64,000 bases of DNA, from positions 124,001-188,000 of the forward strand of contig JAKLDN010000007.1 in NCBI GenBank assembly GCA_022703505.1. Direction: 5' to 3'. The position numbers were made by a program, and so were the translations under genes. The stretch comes from Spirochaetota bacterium (GTDB lineage: Bacteria > Spirochaetota > Spirochaetia > Treponematales > UBA12059). The notes below the pieces were generated by a model that searched no databases, was not told the origin of the DNA, and saw only the letters and a program-made list of their open reading frames with translations. The first letter of the stretch is position 1, and each line of letters starts with the position of its first letter. Below are positions 19,559-48,484 of the stretch, in pieces.

Positions 19559-19670
19559 CCAACAAGATGTACAAGATTAAGAAAGATCAACAAGATAGAG
19601 ATAAAAGATCTGTGATTTCTTTCATTCTTCCATCCTGTTCATCCACCTAACATCCTGTTCATCTTGTTGG
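19559..19670. repeat. ACAGGAT-type inverted repeat, copy 1 (no gene)
   Basis: Left arm 19559-19596 (CCAACAAGATGTACAAGAT and onward) faces right arm 19631-19670 (ending ATCCTGTTCATCTTGTTGG), with a short AT-rich loop. The arms are built from units of about 9 bases of the form (G)AACA(A/G)GAT. This is the most diverged copy of the dispersed family. Confidence 0.75.
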
Positions 19671-29498: not shown

Positions 29499-29535
29499 GA
29501 CAGGATGGACAGGATGAGGGAAGATAGACAAGATG
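29499..29535 (+). repeat. ACAGGAT-type repeat, copy 2 (single arm)
   Basis: Three to four units (GACAGGATGGACAGGATG, then GATAGACAAGATGG) lie between the secreted-protein gene and wzm. No opposing ATCCTGT arm is present, so this looks like half of an element. Confidence 0.6.
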
Positions 29536-29570: not shown

Positions 29571-30434
29571 ATGAAGGCTGCCGGGAACGCGTCGACGGGG
29601 GATTGGGACATCGTTATAACCGCGAAGGACAAGCTGTTGTCTTTCGACTTCAAGGAGCTCTTCCAGTACCGGGACCTGATCAAGCTGCTCATCCGGCGCG
29701 ACTTCGTGGCGGTGTACAAGCAGACCATCCTGGGCCCTCTGTGGTTCCTTTTCCATCCCATCATGTCCACGATCGTGTACATGTTCGTGTTCGGGAACAT
29801 CGCCAAGATCGGAACGGACAACATCCCCCGGCCTCTCTTCTATTTTTCCGGGACCATGCTCTGGACCTTCTTTGCCACCACGTTGCAGAAGTCTTCGGAC
29901 ACCTTCATCGTGAACGCCCCCATCTACGGAAAGGTCTACTTCCCGCGGTTCTCCATGCCCATCGTCTACGCGGTGAACAGTTTCTTCACCCTGGCCATCC
30001 AGTTCGTGTGCCTGCTGGCCATCTACGTCGTCTACCTGGTGTCGGGCTACTCCTTCCACCCGTCCTGGTGGCTCCTGGCGACGCCGATTCTAGTCCTTCA
30101 GACCGCCCTGCTCAGCCTTGGGATCGGCATCATGGTGTCCGCCCTGACCACCCGCTACCGGGACTTCCGGAACCTGATCCATTTCGGACTCCAGATGATG
30201 ATGTACGTCACGCCCGTCGTGTATCCCATGTCCGAGGTCCCGGCCCGGCTGAAACCCCTGGTTATGCTGAATCCCCTGACCCCCGTGATGGAGCTGTTCC
30301 GGCATGCCCTGCTGGGCGGCGGAGAAGGAAACCTGACCCTGTGGGCCGTCAGCCTTGTCGAGACGGCGGCGGTGTTCTGGCTGGGAATGCGCGTGTTCAA
30401 CCACAACGAGCGGACGTTCATCGACGTCGTATAA
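29571..30434 (+). CDS. wzm: ABC-2 type polysaccharide export permease (Wzm)
   Basis: This 287-aa inner-membrane protein has six helices. VYKQTILGPLWFLFHPI is the conserved amphipathic N-terminal motif and YRDFRNLIHFGLQMMMY with TPVVYP the family motif near the C-terminus. It would carry undecaprenyl-linked O-antigen or capsule across the inner membrane together with the ATPase encoded 9 bases downstream. AAGGAG precedes the ATG. No Wzx flippase or Wzy polymerase is seen in the window, so export is by the ABC route. Confidence 0.9.
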   Translation: MKAAGNASTGDWDIVITAKDKLLSFDFKELFQYRDLIKLLIRRDFVAVYKQTILGPLWFLFHPIMSTIVYMFVFGNIAKIGTDNIPRPLFYFSGTMLWTFFATTLQKSSDTFIVNAPIYGKVYFPRFSMPIVYAVNSFFTLAIQFVCLLAIYVVYLVSGYSFHPSWWLLATPILVLQTALLSLGIGIMVSALTTRYRDFRNLIHFGLQMMMYVTPVVYPMSEVPARLKPLVMLNPLTPVMELFRHALLGGGEGNLTLWAVSLVETAAVFWLGMRVFNHNERTFIDVV

Positions 30435-43683: not shown

Positions 43684-44781
43684 ATGCATACTCTCACACT
43701 CGCCCTGATCGGCTGCGGCCGGATCAGCCACAAGCACATCGAGGCGGCCGTCAAGAACGTGGACCGTCTCCGGCTCGTCGCCTGCTGCGACCCCAAGCTC
43801 GACCGGGCCGAGGCCAAGGCCGCGGAATACCGAAAGGCTTTTCCGGACGCCAAGGTCGCGGTCTACGCGGACTATCGGGAGATGCTCGCCAAGGAGCGGC
43901 CCGACCTCTGCGCGATCGCGACGGAGTCCGGGTACCACCCCCGGATCTCGATGGACTGCTCCGCGGCGGGGGCCCACGTGGTCTGCGAGAAGCCCATGGC
44001 CCTGTCCACCGCGGACGCGGACGCCATGATCGCGGCGGCCCGGAAGGCTGGCCGGACCCTCTCGGTCTGCTTCCAGAACCGCTTCAACGCCCCGGTCCAA
44101 CGGACCCGGACGGCCCTGGAGGCCGGGCGCTTCGGCCGCATGCTCCACGGCATGGTCCAGGTCCGGTGGAACCGCAACGAGGCCTACTACGCCGAGGCTC
44201 CCTGGCGCGGCACCTGGGACCTGGACGGGGGCACCCTCATGAACCAGTGCACCCACGGCATCGACCTTCTCCAGTGGATGATGGGCGAGGACGCCGTCCG
44301 CGTCCAGGCGGCCACCCGCCGTTTCCTCCGGCCCATCGAGGCGGAGGACTTCGGCGCCGCGGTGGTGGAGTTCGCCTCCGGGGCGGTGGGGATCATCGAG
44401 GGGACCGCGGATATCTACCCCACGAACCTGAACGAGACCCTTTCCCTCTTCGGCCAGACCGGGAGCGTGGTGATCGGGGGCCTGGCGGTGAACAAGATCG
44501 AGACCTGGCGCTTCGCGGACGCCGCCGTCGCGGGGGACCCGGAGGATAAGGTCGTGAACCCCGCGGAGAAGGACCCCCCCTCGGTCTACGGCTTCGGACA
44601 CTCGGCCCTGTACGCGGACGTCCTCTCGGCGATCGAGTCCGGCCGGGAGCCCCTGGTCTCCGGGGAGAAGGGCCGCAAGGCGCTGGAGATCATCCTGGCG
44701 ATCTACAAGAGCCAGAAGACCGGCAAGGCCGTGGACCTGCCGTGCGAGTTTTCTACTGTGGAAATGAAGGGCGTTTTCTGA
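43684..44781 (+). CDS. wbpB: UDP-GlcNAcA 3-dehydrogenase (Gfo/Idh/MocA family, WbpB/WlbA-like)
   Basis: This 365-aa oxidoreductase has the N-terminal Rossmann motif LALIGCGRISHKHIEAA, the catalytic-domain CEKPMAL and the active-site QCTHGIDLLQWM. In the WbpB/WlbA route it oxidises C3 of UDP-GlcNAc-uronate before transamination. The assignment rests on its neighbours: WbpE-, WbpD-, WbpA- and WbpI-like genes follow within 8 kb. The ATG at 43684 is preferred over a TTG ten codons upstream. The composition is again very GC-rich. Confidence 0.85.
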   Translation: MHTLTLALIGCGRISHKHIEAAVKNVDRLRLVACCDPKLDRAEAKAAEYRKAFPDAKVAVYADYREMLAKERPDLCAIATESGYHPRISMDCSAAGAHVVCEKPMALSTADADAMIAAARKAGRTLSVCFQNRFNAPVQRTRTALEAGRFGRMLHGMVQVRWNRNEAYYAEAPWRGTWDLDGGTLMNQCTHGIDLLQWMMGEDAVRVQAATRRFLRPIEAEDFGAAVVEFASGAVGIIEGTADIYPTNLNETLSLFGQTGSVVIGGLAVNKIETWRFADAAVAGDPEDKVVNPAEKDPPSVYGFGHSALYADVLSAIESGREPLVSGEKGRKALEIILAIYKSQKTGKAVDLPCEFSTVEMKGVF

Positions 44782-44788
44782 GGAAGAG

Positions 44789-45224
44789 GGACAGGATAAC
44801 AGAATATACAGGATGGACAGGATCAAGAATGATCAAGGATGAGGTATCGGAGCGAATCATCGGTTGTGCTTTTCAAGTGTATAATATTCTGGGATCCGGA
44901 TTCCTGGAAAGTGTCTATAAAAAAGCCTTGGTGATTGAACTAACAAAAGCCGGTCTTACGGTAGAGGAAGAAACACCGATCACGGTCACCTATAAAGGAC
45001 AAATCGTAGGATGGTTTAATGCTGATCTTATAGTCGAAAAGAAGATCATCCTTGAACTGAAAGCGATAGATGTTCTGGCCAAGACTCATGAGATCCAGCT
45101 TGTGAATTATCTGAAGGCCACAGGTATCCCTGTGGGGCTTTTAATTAATTTCGGGACAACCGGAATTCAGATCAAACGGAAGTACAAAGATCCTGTCGAT
45201 CCTGACCATCCTGGTATCCTGTCC
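44789..45224. mobile_element. ACAGGAT-type inverted repeat, copy 3, carrying the GxxExxY gene
   Basis: A 36-nt left arm (44789-44824, GGACAGGATAACAG and onward) and a 36-nt right arm (45189-45224, ending GGTATCCTGTCC) match in inverted orientation at 30 of 36 positions. The gene for a PD-(D/E)XK-type protein starts 4 bases after the left arm, and the right arm lies in its last codons. The arms have the same length and unit period as the gene-less copies nearby. Confidence 0.7.
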
Positions 45225-45245
45225 AAGGAAGAGGAATCCCAATGA
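44829..45245 (+). CDS. GxxExxY protein (predicted PD-(D/E)XK nuclease fold)
   Basis: This 138-aa protein of the GxxExxY family (PDDEXK_3) has the defining GSGFLESVY and then FNADLIVEKKIILELKAID, where D, E and K fit a nuclease active site. LINFGTTGIQIKR is the conserved end of the domain. Residues 121-132 (DPVDPDHPGILS) are encoded by the right inverted arm of the repeat element and lie outside the conserved fold. It is less GC-rich than its neighbours and is inserted between wbpB and wbpE. Its stop overlaps the wbpE start as ATGA. Function is unproven. Confidence 0.82.
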   Translation: MIKDEVSERIIGCAFQVYNILGSGFLESVYKKALVIELTKAGLTVEEETPITVTYKGQIVGWFNADLIVEKKIILELKAIDVLAKTHEIQLVNYLKATGIPVGLLINFGTTGIQIKRKYKDPVDPDHPGILSKEEESQ

Positions 45246-46357
45246 CCGTACCGTTCTACACATCCACCCGCGAGTACGCCGCGCGGAAGGACGAGTTCGA
45301 CGCCGCCGTGCGCTCCGTGATGGAGCGCGGGGACTTCATCCTGGGCTCAGAGGTCGCGGAGTTCGAGCGCGAGGCCGCCGCCTGGCTGGGCGCGAAGTAC
45401 GCCGTGGGCGTGGCCTCGGGTTCCGACGCCCTGGTGATCGCCGCGGACCTCCTGGGCTTCCGGGACGGGGCCGAGGTGCTCACCCCCACGTTCACGTTCT
45501 TCGCCTCCACTTCCTGCGTGTCGCGCCTGGGCGGCAAGCCGGTGCTGGTGGACCTGGACGCGGAGACCCTGAACATGGATCTCCGGGACGCTGAGCGGCG
45601 CATGTCCAAGGCCACCAAGGGCATCATCCCCGTGCACCTCTTCCTACAGCCCACGCCGATGCAGCCGGTGATGGACCTGGCGCGGAAGCGCGGCCTGCGG
45701 GTCCTGGAGGACGCCGCCGAGGCCTGGGGCATGGACTGCCTCGTGGACGGATCGTGGCGCAAGGCGGGCACGGTCGGCGAGATCGGCATCTACTCCTTCT
45801 TCCCCACCAAGACCCTGGGGGCCTACGGGGACGCGGGGCTCATGGTCACCGACGACGAGGAACTGTACAAGAAAATCAAGAGCTACCGGGTCCACGGGAG
45901 CTCCGTGAAGTACCACCACGACTACGTGGGGTACAACTCCCGGCTGGACACCCTCCAGGCGGCGATCTTGCGGGTGAAGATGCGGACCACCGACGCGGCC
46001 GTCGCGGCCCGCGCCCGACACGGGGCGCACTACACGGAGCGACTGTCCCGAGTCCCGGGGCTCCGCCTGCCCAAGATCCTTCCGGGCGGGAAGCCCGTGT
46101 ACTACGTGTTCAACATCTTTGCGCCCCGCCGGGACGAACTCGCGGCCTTCCTCAAGGAGAAGGGGATCGGCACCTCGATCTACTACCCCATCCCCCTGCA
46201 CCTGCAGAAATGTTTCCAGAATCTAGGGTACAAAAAGGGCGACTTCCCGAACGCAGAGCGGGCCTGCGGGGAAGTCCTGGCTCTGCCCATCTTCCCGGAA
46301 CTCACGGACGACGAAGTCGACTACGTTTGCGACCAGATAGAGGCGTTTTATCGCTAA
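45242..46357 (+). CDS. wbpE: DegT/DnrJ/EryC1/StrS aminotransferase (WbpE-like)
   Basis: This 371-aa PLP-dependent sugar aminotransferase has VGVASGSDALVIAADLLG as the phosphate-binding loop, LEDAAEAWG with the PLP ring contact, and FFPTKTLGAYGDAG with the Schiff-base Lys. It would aminate the 3-keto group of UDP-3-keto-GlcNAc-uronate. The start codon overlaps the end of the GxxExxY gene, so its ribosome site (AAGGAAGAGG) lies within that gene. It seems to rely on the inserted element for translation context. Confidence 0.88.
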   Translation: MTVPFYTSTREYAARKDEFDAAVRSVMERGDFILGSEVAEFEREAAAWLGAKYAVGVASGSDALVIAADLLGFRDGAEVLTPTFTFFASTSCVSRLGGKPVLVDLDAETLNMDLRDAERRMSKATKGIIPVHLFLQPTPMQPVMDLARKRGLRVLEDAAEAWGMDCLVDGSWRKAGTVGEIGIYSFFPTKTLGAYGDAGLMVTDDEELYKKIKSYRVHGSSVKYHHDYVGYNSRLDTLQAAILRVKMRTTDAAVAARARHGAHYTERLSRVPGLRLPKILPGGKPVYYVFNIFAPRRDELAAFLKEKGIGTSIYYPIPLHLQKCFQNLGYKKGDFPNAERACGEVLALPIFPELTDDEVDYVCDQIEAFYR

Positions 46358-46360
46358 TAT

Positions 46361-46467
46361 GGACAGGATGAACAGGATGGAGACCGGATGAACAGGATAG
46401 GGCAATATTCGCTCATCCTCATGATTCCATCTTGTTCATCCTTTTCAACATCCTGTACATCCTGTCT
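46361..46467. repeat. ACAGGAT-type inverted repeat, copy 4 (no gene)
   Basis: Left arm 46361-46398 (GGACAGGATGAACAGGATGG and onward) and right arm 46429-46467 (ending ACATCCTGTACATCCTGTCT) pair with a 1-base offset across a 30-base loop. It fills most of the space between wbpE and wbpD. Confidence 0.8.
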
Positions 46468-46485
46468 GATTTCTCGGGAGAACTC

Positions 46486-47049
46486 ATGAGCGACTACTTT
46501 GTACATGAATCGTCCTATGTCGACGAGGGGGCGGTGATCGGGGAGGGGACCAAGGTCTGGCACTTCACCCATGTGATGCCCGGGGCGCGGATCGGGAAGA
46601 AGTGTGTCCTGGGGCAGAACGTGAATGTCGGGAGCAAGGCCGTCCTGGGGGATCGGGTGAAGGTCCAGAACAACGTCTCCCTCTACGACGACGTGGTCCT
46701 GGAGGATGACGTCTTCTGCGGCCCCTCCTGCGTGTTCACCAACGTCATCAATCCCCGGTCCTTCGTGGAGCGCAAGCATGAGTACCTGCGGACGCTGGTG
46801 AAGAAAGGCGCCTCCATCGGTGCCAACGCCACCATCGTGTGCGGCGTGACCCTGGGGGAGTACTGCTTCGTGGGGGCCGGCAGCGTGGTGACCAAGGACG
46901 TGCCCGCCTACGCCCTGGTGCACGGAAACCCGGCCCGGGTCCGGGGCTGGATGTGCCAGTGCGGCGTCAAGCTGGGGGAAGACCTGGTCTGCCCCGAATG
47001 CGGGAAAAAATACAAGAAGGCAGGACCCGGATTAATATTAGAAGAATAG
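46486..47049 (+). CDS. wbpD: Hexapeptide N-acetyltransferase (WbpD-like) with C-terminal zinc-ribbon-like tail
   Basis: This 187-aa left-handed beta-helix acetyltransferase has repeated hexapeptides: [37 protein letters not shown] and [28 protein letters not shown] ends the helix. It would acetylate the 3-amino group made by WbpE. A tail with CQCG and CPECGKKY forms a possible zinc ribbon, as in other members of this group. GGGAG precedes the ATG at 46486. ACAGGAT repeats lie on both sides. Confidence 0.88.
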
Positions 47050-47141
47050 ACAGGATAACAGGATTTCCAGGATGAACAAGATCACTGTTTGGTGATCCCA
47101 TAATTAATCCTGTACATCCTGACAATCCTGTTATCCTGTCT
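47048..47141. repeat. ACAGGAT-type inverted repeat, copy 5 (no gene)
   Basis: Left arm 47048-47083 (AGACAGGATAACAGGATT and onward) and right arm 47106-47141 match at 31 of 36 positions, and the outer 18 are perfect. A smaller ATCAC / GTGAT pair lies near the loop. It begins within the wbpD stop codon and ends 24 bases before wbpA. Confidence 0.85.
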
Positions 47142-47164
47142 TATTTCCAATTTTGGGAGAATGC

Positions 47165-48484
47165 ATGAACTACTATGATTCTATTCTGAAGAAGATCTCC
47201 GACAGGTCCGTCGTGGTCGGCGTCATCGGCCTGGGCTACGTGGGTCTGCCCCTGGCGGTGGCCTTCGCGCGCAAGGGCGTGACGGTCCTGGGCTTCGAGA
47301 AGAGCGGGAAGAAGGCGGAATCCGTCAACGCCGGCAGGAACTACATCGGCGACATTAAGGACGAGGAGTTGGCCGGGGTCGTGAAGGCCGGCAAGCTCTC
47401 GGCGACCACGGACTTTTCCCGCATCCGGGAGTGCGACGCCGCGATCATCTGCGTGCCCACGCCCCTGGACAAGTTCAAGAAGCCCGACATGAGCTTCATC
47501 GAGGCCTCCTGCGTGGACATCGGCAGGAACATGAAGGCCGGCACTTTCGTTTCCCTGGAGAGCACCACATACCCGACTACCACCGAGGACTTCATGAAGC
47601 CCATCTTGGAGCGGGAGTCCGGGTTGAAGGAGGGAGCGGACTTCTGGCTCTGCTTCAGCCCCGAGCGGGTGGATCCGGGCAACAAGGACTACAAGACCGA
47701 CAACACCCCCAAGGTCGTGGGCGCCCTGGGCGAGCAGGCCCGCCAGATCGCACTGGCCCTGTACGGGATCGCGATCCAGCACCTCCACGCCGTCAGCTCA
47801 CCCCGGGCCGCGGAGATGGTCAAGATCCTGGAGAACACCTATCGCCTGGTGAACATCTCCCTTATCAACGAACTGGCCCTGCTTTCGGGCAAGATGGACA
47901 TCAACATCTGGGAGGTCATCGAGGCGGCCAAGACCAAGCCCTACGGGTTCCAGGCCTTCTATCCCGGTCCCGGGATCGGCGGCCACTGCATCCCCCTGGA
48001 CCCCTTCTACCTGGAGTACATCGCCAAGGGCTTCAACTTCGATCTGACCATGATCAACACGGCCGGCAATATCAACAACCTCATGCCCTACCGGATGATG
48101 AACAAGATCGCCTTCGCCCTGAACCGGCACAAAAAAGCCCTGAACGGCTCCACGATTCTTTTCCTGGGGGTGGCCTACAAGCCGGACATCGACGATCCCC
48201 GGGAGAGTCCGGCTCTCCTGGTGATGGAGGCGGTGGCCAAGAAGGGCGCCAGGGTCCTCTACCACGACCCGTACATACCCGAGGTGACCGACGACCACGG
48301 TAAGACCTGGAAGGGCGTGGAGTTGACGGACGAAATCCTGTCCTCCGCGGACTGCGTGGTCTTCACCACGAATCATGCCTGCTTCGATGTTGAGCGCATC
48401 GTGGAGAAGGCCGGGTTGGTGGTGGATACCCGAAACGCGGTCAAGCGGGTGCACATCGAGGACGGGAAGGTGTTCAAGCTGTGA
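47165..48484 (+). CDS. wbpA: UDP-N-acetylglucosamine 6-dehydrogenase (WbpA-like)
   Basis: This 439-aa nucleotide-sugar dehydrogenase has [19 protein letters not shown] for NAD binding, [27 protein letters not shown] and the catalytic Cys in [32 protein letters not shown] lies in the C-terminal domain. It oxidises UDP-GlcNAc to the uronate that enters the WbpB/E/D/I route. GGGAG stands five bases before the ATG at 47165. A repeat element occupies its leader. Confidence 0.93.

Follow-up and report, generated by a model that had tools for sequence, protein, structure and literature searches.

A GxxExxY nuclease gene enclosed by inverted heptamer arrays probably drives a class of mobile DNA that has been overlooked

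In a 64,000-nucleotide stretch of a Spirochaetota genome (the window), a small gene of the GxxExxY family lies between two inverted arms, and hairpins with arms of the same kind and no gene are found close by. To our knowledge, GxxExxY proteins have no assigned function. The locus raises the question of whether gene and arms together form a mobile unit and, if so, what moves it. An earlier note on this DNA read them as an autonomous element accompanied by small derivatives that had lost the gene.

The window element and its nuclease

The element measures 436 bp from arm to arm (44789–45224, forward strand). The left arm (44789–44824, forward strand) is made of ACAGGAT-type units spaced about 9 nt apart. 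Comparison of the arms places its inverted counterpart, the right arm, at 45189–45224 on the reverse strand, inside the coding region. The two arms, each 36 nt long and separated by 364 nt, are 83% complementary, which agrees with the 30 of 36 matching positions given in the earlier note. The gene (44829–45245, forward strand, 138 aa), identified from its open reading frame, profile matches and predicted fold, begins with an ATG 4 bases past the left arm, also as described. The right arm had been taken to supply the last codons of the gene. It is indeed coding, but the reading frame extends 7 codons beyond it to 45245, where the stop codon shares ATGA with the start codon of the next gene. This gene is the sole GxxExxY copy in its genome.

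The protein, a member of the PDDEXK_3/GxxExxY family, matches TIGR04256 and PF13366 (E values 3.8e-43 and 3.8e-42; 146.6 bits against a cut-off of 35 and 143.8 against 22). This nuclease family is its only profile match; it is neither a Y1 HUH transposase nor a member of PF05635. The PD-(D/E)XK-type residues attributed to the family are kept as E27, D66, E76xK78 and Q90xxxY94, and D66, K78, Q90 and Y94 are invariant across 16 aligned sequences. The closest match of the predicted structure (pLDDT 88.5, pTM 0.80) is the Cas4-type nuclease SSO0001 (4ic1; E 3e-5, Z 10.9, rmsd 7.0 over 107 residues), followed by nucleases of the lambda-exonuclease type and the Hjc resolvase (1gef, Z 7.9). The modelled fold, which shows no function by itself, is compatible with nuclease activity at DNA ends or junctions. 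As modelled, GxxExxY proteins share fold and QxxxY-type motif with Cas4, RecB, lambda exonuclease and Hjc; they differ from these in being a minimal domain of ~120 residues carried on arm-bracketed elements, in the window outside any known repair or CRISPR operon.

The units of the arms are not confined to the gene. With up to 2 mismatches allowed, the window contains 17 copies of the unit pair ACAGGATNNACAGGAT, where 0.25 are expected; with up to 1 mismatch, the whole genome contains 61+68 copies and none of the reversed control pattern. Both gene-less hairpins that had been pointed out near the gene, at 46361–46467 and 47048–47141, are real; the second is nearest in sequence to the gene's arms and matches them in register (86% and 88%). 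A diverged hairpin of the same family (19562–19667) lies between open reading frames outside the polysaccharide locus, and just upstream of the open reading frame at 29571 there is a left half-arm (29500–29535, forward strand), for which an inverted partner was not found. Gene-less hairpins outnumber the single gene many times in this genome, and their units are spaced 9-11-9, unlike those of the gene-bearing arms. A genome of the same genus, G001, has ACAGGAT sites and hairpins without any GxxExxY gene.

At three loci of the window's genome (L006, L008 and L017), hairpins of the CACGGAG or CACAGAG type have an ACAGGAT hairpin nested close to their centre. Such nesting suggests that older palindromes were entered near their middle, as if this were a favoured target of the ACAGGAT hairpins.

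Arms around other GxxExxY genes

GxxExxY genes were sampled from relatives, from the window's phylum and from named genomes, the last scanned with a single protein. For each gene, the 200 nt upstream were aligned to the reverse complement of the 200 nt downstream, and a score of at least 28 was taken as the threshold. This score was reached by 58% of 96 full-length GxxExxY genes and by 0.3% of 659 control intervals with the same geometry in the same loci. It was also reached by 4.5% of mismatched gene pairs in this first sample and by 6% of 135 ordinary open reading frames from the same loci and the window. A second phylum, to which the Phocaeicola metagenome-assembled genome behind locus L138 belongs, was later examined at the same threshold, along with a few further genomes. 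There, 72% of 36 genes reached it, none of 135 intervals did, and mismatched pairs did so in 11% of cases. Mismatched pairs lie above zero because unit sequences are common to genes of different genomes. The mismatched-pair, same-locus and ordinary-frame controls rule out chance similarity of low-complexity flanks. Inverted arms are thus far more frequent around GxxExxY genes than around control intervals, as the earlier note had suggested checking, and about 42% of the genes in the first sample (n=96) have no detectable arms.

The arms are arrays of heptamers with a dominant lag of 8–10 nt in 66 of 77 left arms, and the left arm is usually purine-rich. ACAGGAT did not hold up as the general unit: other GxxExxY genes use CACAGAG, CACGGAG, CGCAAAG or CACAGAT, and CGCAGAG and others are also found. 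Extra gene-less copies adjoin many GxxExxY genes. At five loci (L065, L066, L067, L072 and L084), clustered near-identical repeats adjoin the gene, and some of these repeats reproduce its hairpin without the gene. In genome G223, which has no GxxExxY match, CACAGAG unit pairs recur on one strand of contigs C2 and C6 every ~108–125 bp, like a tandem array.

Arm type follows the protein. Arms were labelled from flanking DNA alone as T (units ending GAT) or G (units ending GAG or AAG), and a tree of the protein domain was built after labelling. On the tree of 49 labelled genes the label changes once, compared with a mean of 12.4 changes in shuffles, none of 500 shuffles being as low. With the second phylum added, 4 changes are needed (shuffled mean 15.6), because three T-like genes fall inside the G side. 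The classes were defined after the first loci had been seen and many forks are weak, which limits the precision of these counts and not their direction. Host lineage alone was rejected as the source of arm type, since opposite types occur within one genus: the window's genome has T arms and G002 has G arms, and likewise G010 has T and G015 has G. Arm type is therefore not simply host ancestry.

GxxExxY matches exceed the cut-off in 63 of 296 sampled genomes of the window's phylum and in 120 of 247 of the second. A single genome has up to 14 matches, and many copies are decayed. The G-type unit pair is present in 38 of the 63 positive genomes and in 28 of the 233 others (odds ratio 11, P 3e-14, genome size and ancestry uncontrolled).

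Copies, direct repeats and empty sites

The clearest signs of movement come from genome G177, in which five copies of one 482–500-bp element occupy unrelated sites. A 259-bp derivative with an internal deletion and a decayed copy are present as well. The ends of this element read CTGAC[AT]TCT[AG]CCCACA, and its inner arrays are of the same general kind as those described above. Of the five copies and the 259-bp derivative, three are flanked by direct repeats of 9 bp that match at 8–9 positions (AGTATGCAC/AGTATGCAC, TGTGAATAC/TGTGAAAAC and AATATGACG/CATATGACG); two more have weaker direct repeats and the sixth has none. None of the other multi-copy genomes yielded unit copies of comparable clarity.

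A near-perfect 9-bp repeat is also flush with the window element on both sides (GAGGAAGAG at 44780–44788 and AAGGAAGAG at 45225–45233, forward strand), and is a candidate target-site duplication. The right copy is part of the ribosome-binding-site region of the following gene, and the repeat could instead reflect constraint on that motif. In a set of 56 elements with arms, 7 have near-flush 9-mers that agree at 8 or more of 9 positions (0.76 expected), and 4 have perfect ones (0.04 expected). Likely target duplications, which the earlier note had proposed to look for, are seen at several copies in G177 and at a few other elements, with a candidate at the window element, and at none of 21 gene-less hairpins of the window's genome. 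Most of the 9-bp duplications come from a single genome, and a minority of loci have them.

Empty orthologous sites, the other sign of movement that had been proposed, were found for both nearby hairpins. The two genes on either side of the 46361 hairpin directly overlap each other in G001, where the matches abut at C57:16820/16821; the 47048 hairpin is absent from the same place in G001, G009 and G010. In the window, the first of these insertions (46354–46485) parts the two genes that overlap in G001 and adds a stop codon and a ribosome-binding-like sequence, and translation of the two genes may thereby be uncoupled.

G001 and G009 have no GxxExxY gene at the slot of the window's gene. In G010, which belongs to another genus, the same slot holds a GxxExxY gene 61% identical to it, which has arms of ACAGGAT units and another gene-less hairpin next to it; the two genes may go back to one old insertion or to two. 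For GxxExxY, dN/dS is well below 1 in the majority of between-genome comparisons, and it is above 1 between two G177 copies (L088 and L094). This combination is as expected if working copies sustain the lineage while single copies decay. A phage vehicle was rejected, there being no match among 50,697 phage records. Eight plasmid records matched, 0 of them predicted to be mobilizable.

What moves the element

That GxxExxY elements are mobile is well supported. An autonomous element accompanied by derivatives without the gene, as first suggested, draws strong comparative support from bracketing in two phyla, by the arm class following the protein clade, by the G177 copies and their deletion derivative, and by the empty sites. 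This picture fits less well in that arms are mostly not of the ACAGGAT type and that the hairpins of the window's genome are many, differently spaced and free of duplications; the nuclease as mobiliser is our inference from the association. The best explanation, which we favour with some reserve, is that the nuclease mobilises the element by recognising its own arms.

The following mechanism is proposed. The element would be a small selfish mobile DNA of ~430–500 bp with the GxxExxY nuclease as its only gene and inverted arrays of heptamer units, spaced 8–10 nt, as its ends. Most likely, the units repeated in these ends are what the nuclease recognises, either as duplex or as folded hairpin. 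It would cut these ends, the target, or both, and host repair or replication would help to copy the element elsewhere. Hairpins that have the same arms and no gene would be non-autonomous derivatives moved in trans. Arm binding and cleavage by the nuclease, and the chemistry of integration, are inferred steps. We know of no joining activity for a nuclease alone; without strand transfer of its own, the nuclease would need host repair or another enzyme.

Several known systems resemble this arrangement. In common with RAYT (TnpA-REP) systems, one small enzyme gene stands beside dispersed palindromes, enzyme and repeat are apparently matched, and a genome holds many gene-less copies. RAYTs are Y1 HUH transposases, and REPs are single hairpins tagged GTAG or CGTC (PMC2817692, PMC3733652). 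By contrast, the GxxExxY element has a PD-(D/E)XK nuclease and two inverted heptamer arrays that enclose the gene. RAYT genes lie near palindromes that each form a hairpin singly. Inverted ends, the internal-deletion derivative and the 9-bp direct repeats of G177 recall insertion sequences and MITEs, but the GxxExxY element carries no transposase gene, and a parent insertion sequence with the G177 ends was not found in G177.

These likenesses give rise to the strongest alternative, namely that the element is mobile with GxxExxY as its passenger. The ends would then be moved in trans by an unlinked DDE transposase or a RAYT, and the nuclease would serve, for example, defence or keeping of the locus. 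The G177 ends and duplications do resemble those of a DDE transposon, the window's genome has five Y1_Tnp matches, and its gene-less hairpins far exceed its single gene. However, a passenger would not be expected to have its protein clade tracked by arm class. Moreover, no other paired copy of the element ends was found at up to 2 mismatches in the draft assembly of G177 (one genome), and none of the Y1_Tnp genes is near any of the ACAGGAT sites listed. We regard the passenger reading as unlikely.

A further alternative places the element at the RNA level. IVS elements of ~430 bp have a terminal inverted stem around one small ORF of unclear function; the stems are cut by RNase III, and it has been proposed that such elements are mobile and depend on the ORF for their mobility (PMC4990558). 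The GxxExxY element is similar in size and in having terminal inverted repeats that form a stem around a single small ORF. Its arms might therefore fold in transcripts and be processed, making insertions mild, with the protein acting on that RNA or on its own expression and dispersal being incidental or ancient. The transcript of the element folds better than shuffles (z -4.8), and in genomes of this phylum 13 of 25 S23p/IVP genes (PF05635) exceed the threshold for inverted tandem arrays. Against this, GxxExxY belongs to PF13366 and not to the S23p/IVP four-helix bundle family, 0 of 23 S23p/IVP genes have GxxExxY-type units, and the predicted fold is nearest to DNA nucleases. Classic IVSs lie in 23S rRNA genes, whereas the window element lies between operon genes and GxxExxY elements generally in protein-coding operons or intergenic DNA; an Rfam search of 44000–48000 gave no match. 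The arms also pair imperfectly, and the G177 direct repeats point to DNA insertion. The RNA-level reading is, on balance, quite improbable.

Outside rRNA, S23p/IVP genes are also seen between inverted arrays of GTGAATNNG, TAATTGG and AAAGTTG (L151/L247, at C7:621644–621952 of the window's genome, and L144–L169). They look like a parallel class of element, of which GxxExxY elements would be the nuclease-bearing counterpart.

It is highly doubtful that GxxExxY serves the host, or has been domesticated, as a nuclease for removing or repairing palindromes and is kept near them as its work site: purifying selection, Hjc-like fold matches and the occupied slot in another genus would suit this, but the patchy distribution (63 of 296 genomes), the many decayed copies and the up to 14 matches in one genome are unlike a housekeeping gene.

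An earlier description of the association between GxxExxY and arms was not found in the open-access papers searched, which leave part of the literature uncovered; no relevant paper turned up there on the repeat units or on PDDEXK_3, and GxxExxY had only incidental mentions. We consider it an evenly balanced proposition that GxxExxY is the mobilising enzyme of a previously undescribed class of transposable element, in which a single Cas4-like PD-(D/E)XK nuclease recognises its own inverted heptamer arrays without a known transposase or recombinase, and whose matching hairpins are seeded in many bacterial genomes. Tying GxxExxY to a class of dispersed repeats gives a common orphan gene a testable role. 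If the proposal is true, many unexplained intergenic hairpins would be footprints of one kind of element, and if the nuclease alone drives movement, it would represent a new route to transposition, with matched pairs of enzyme and repeat.
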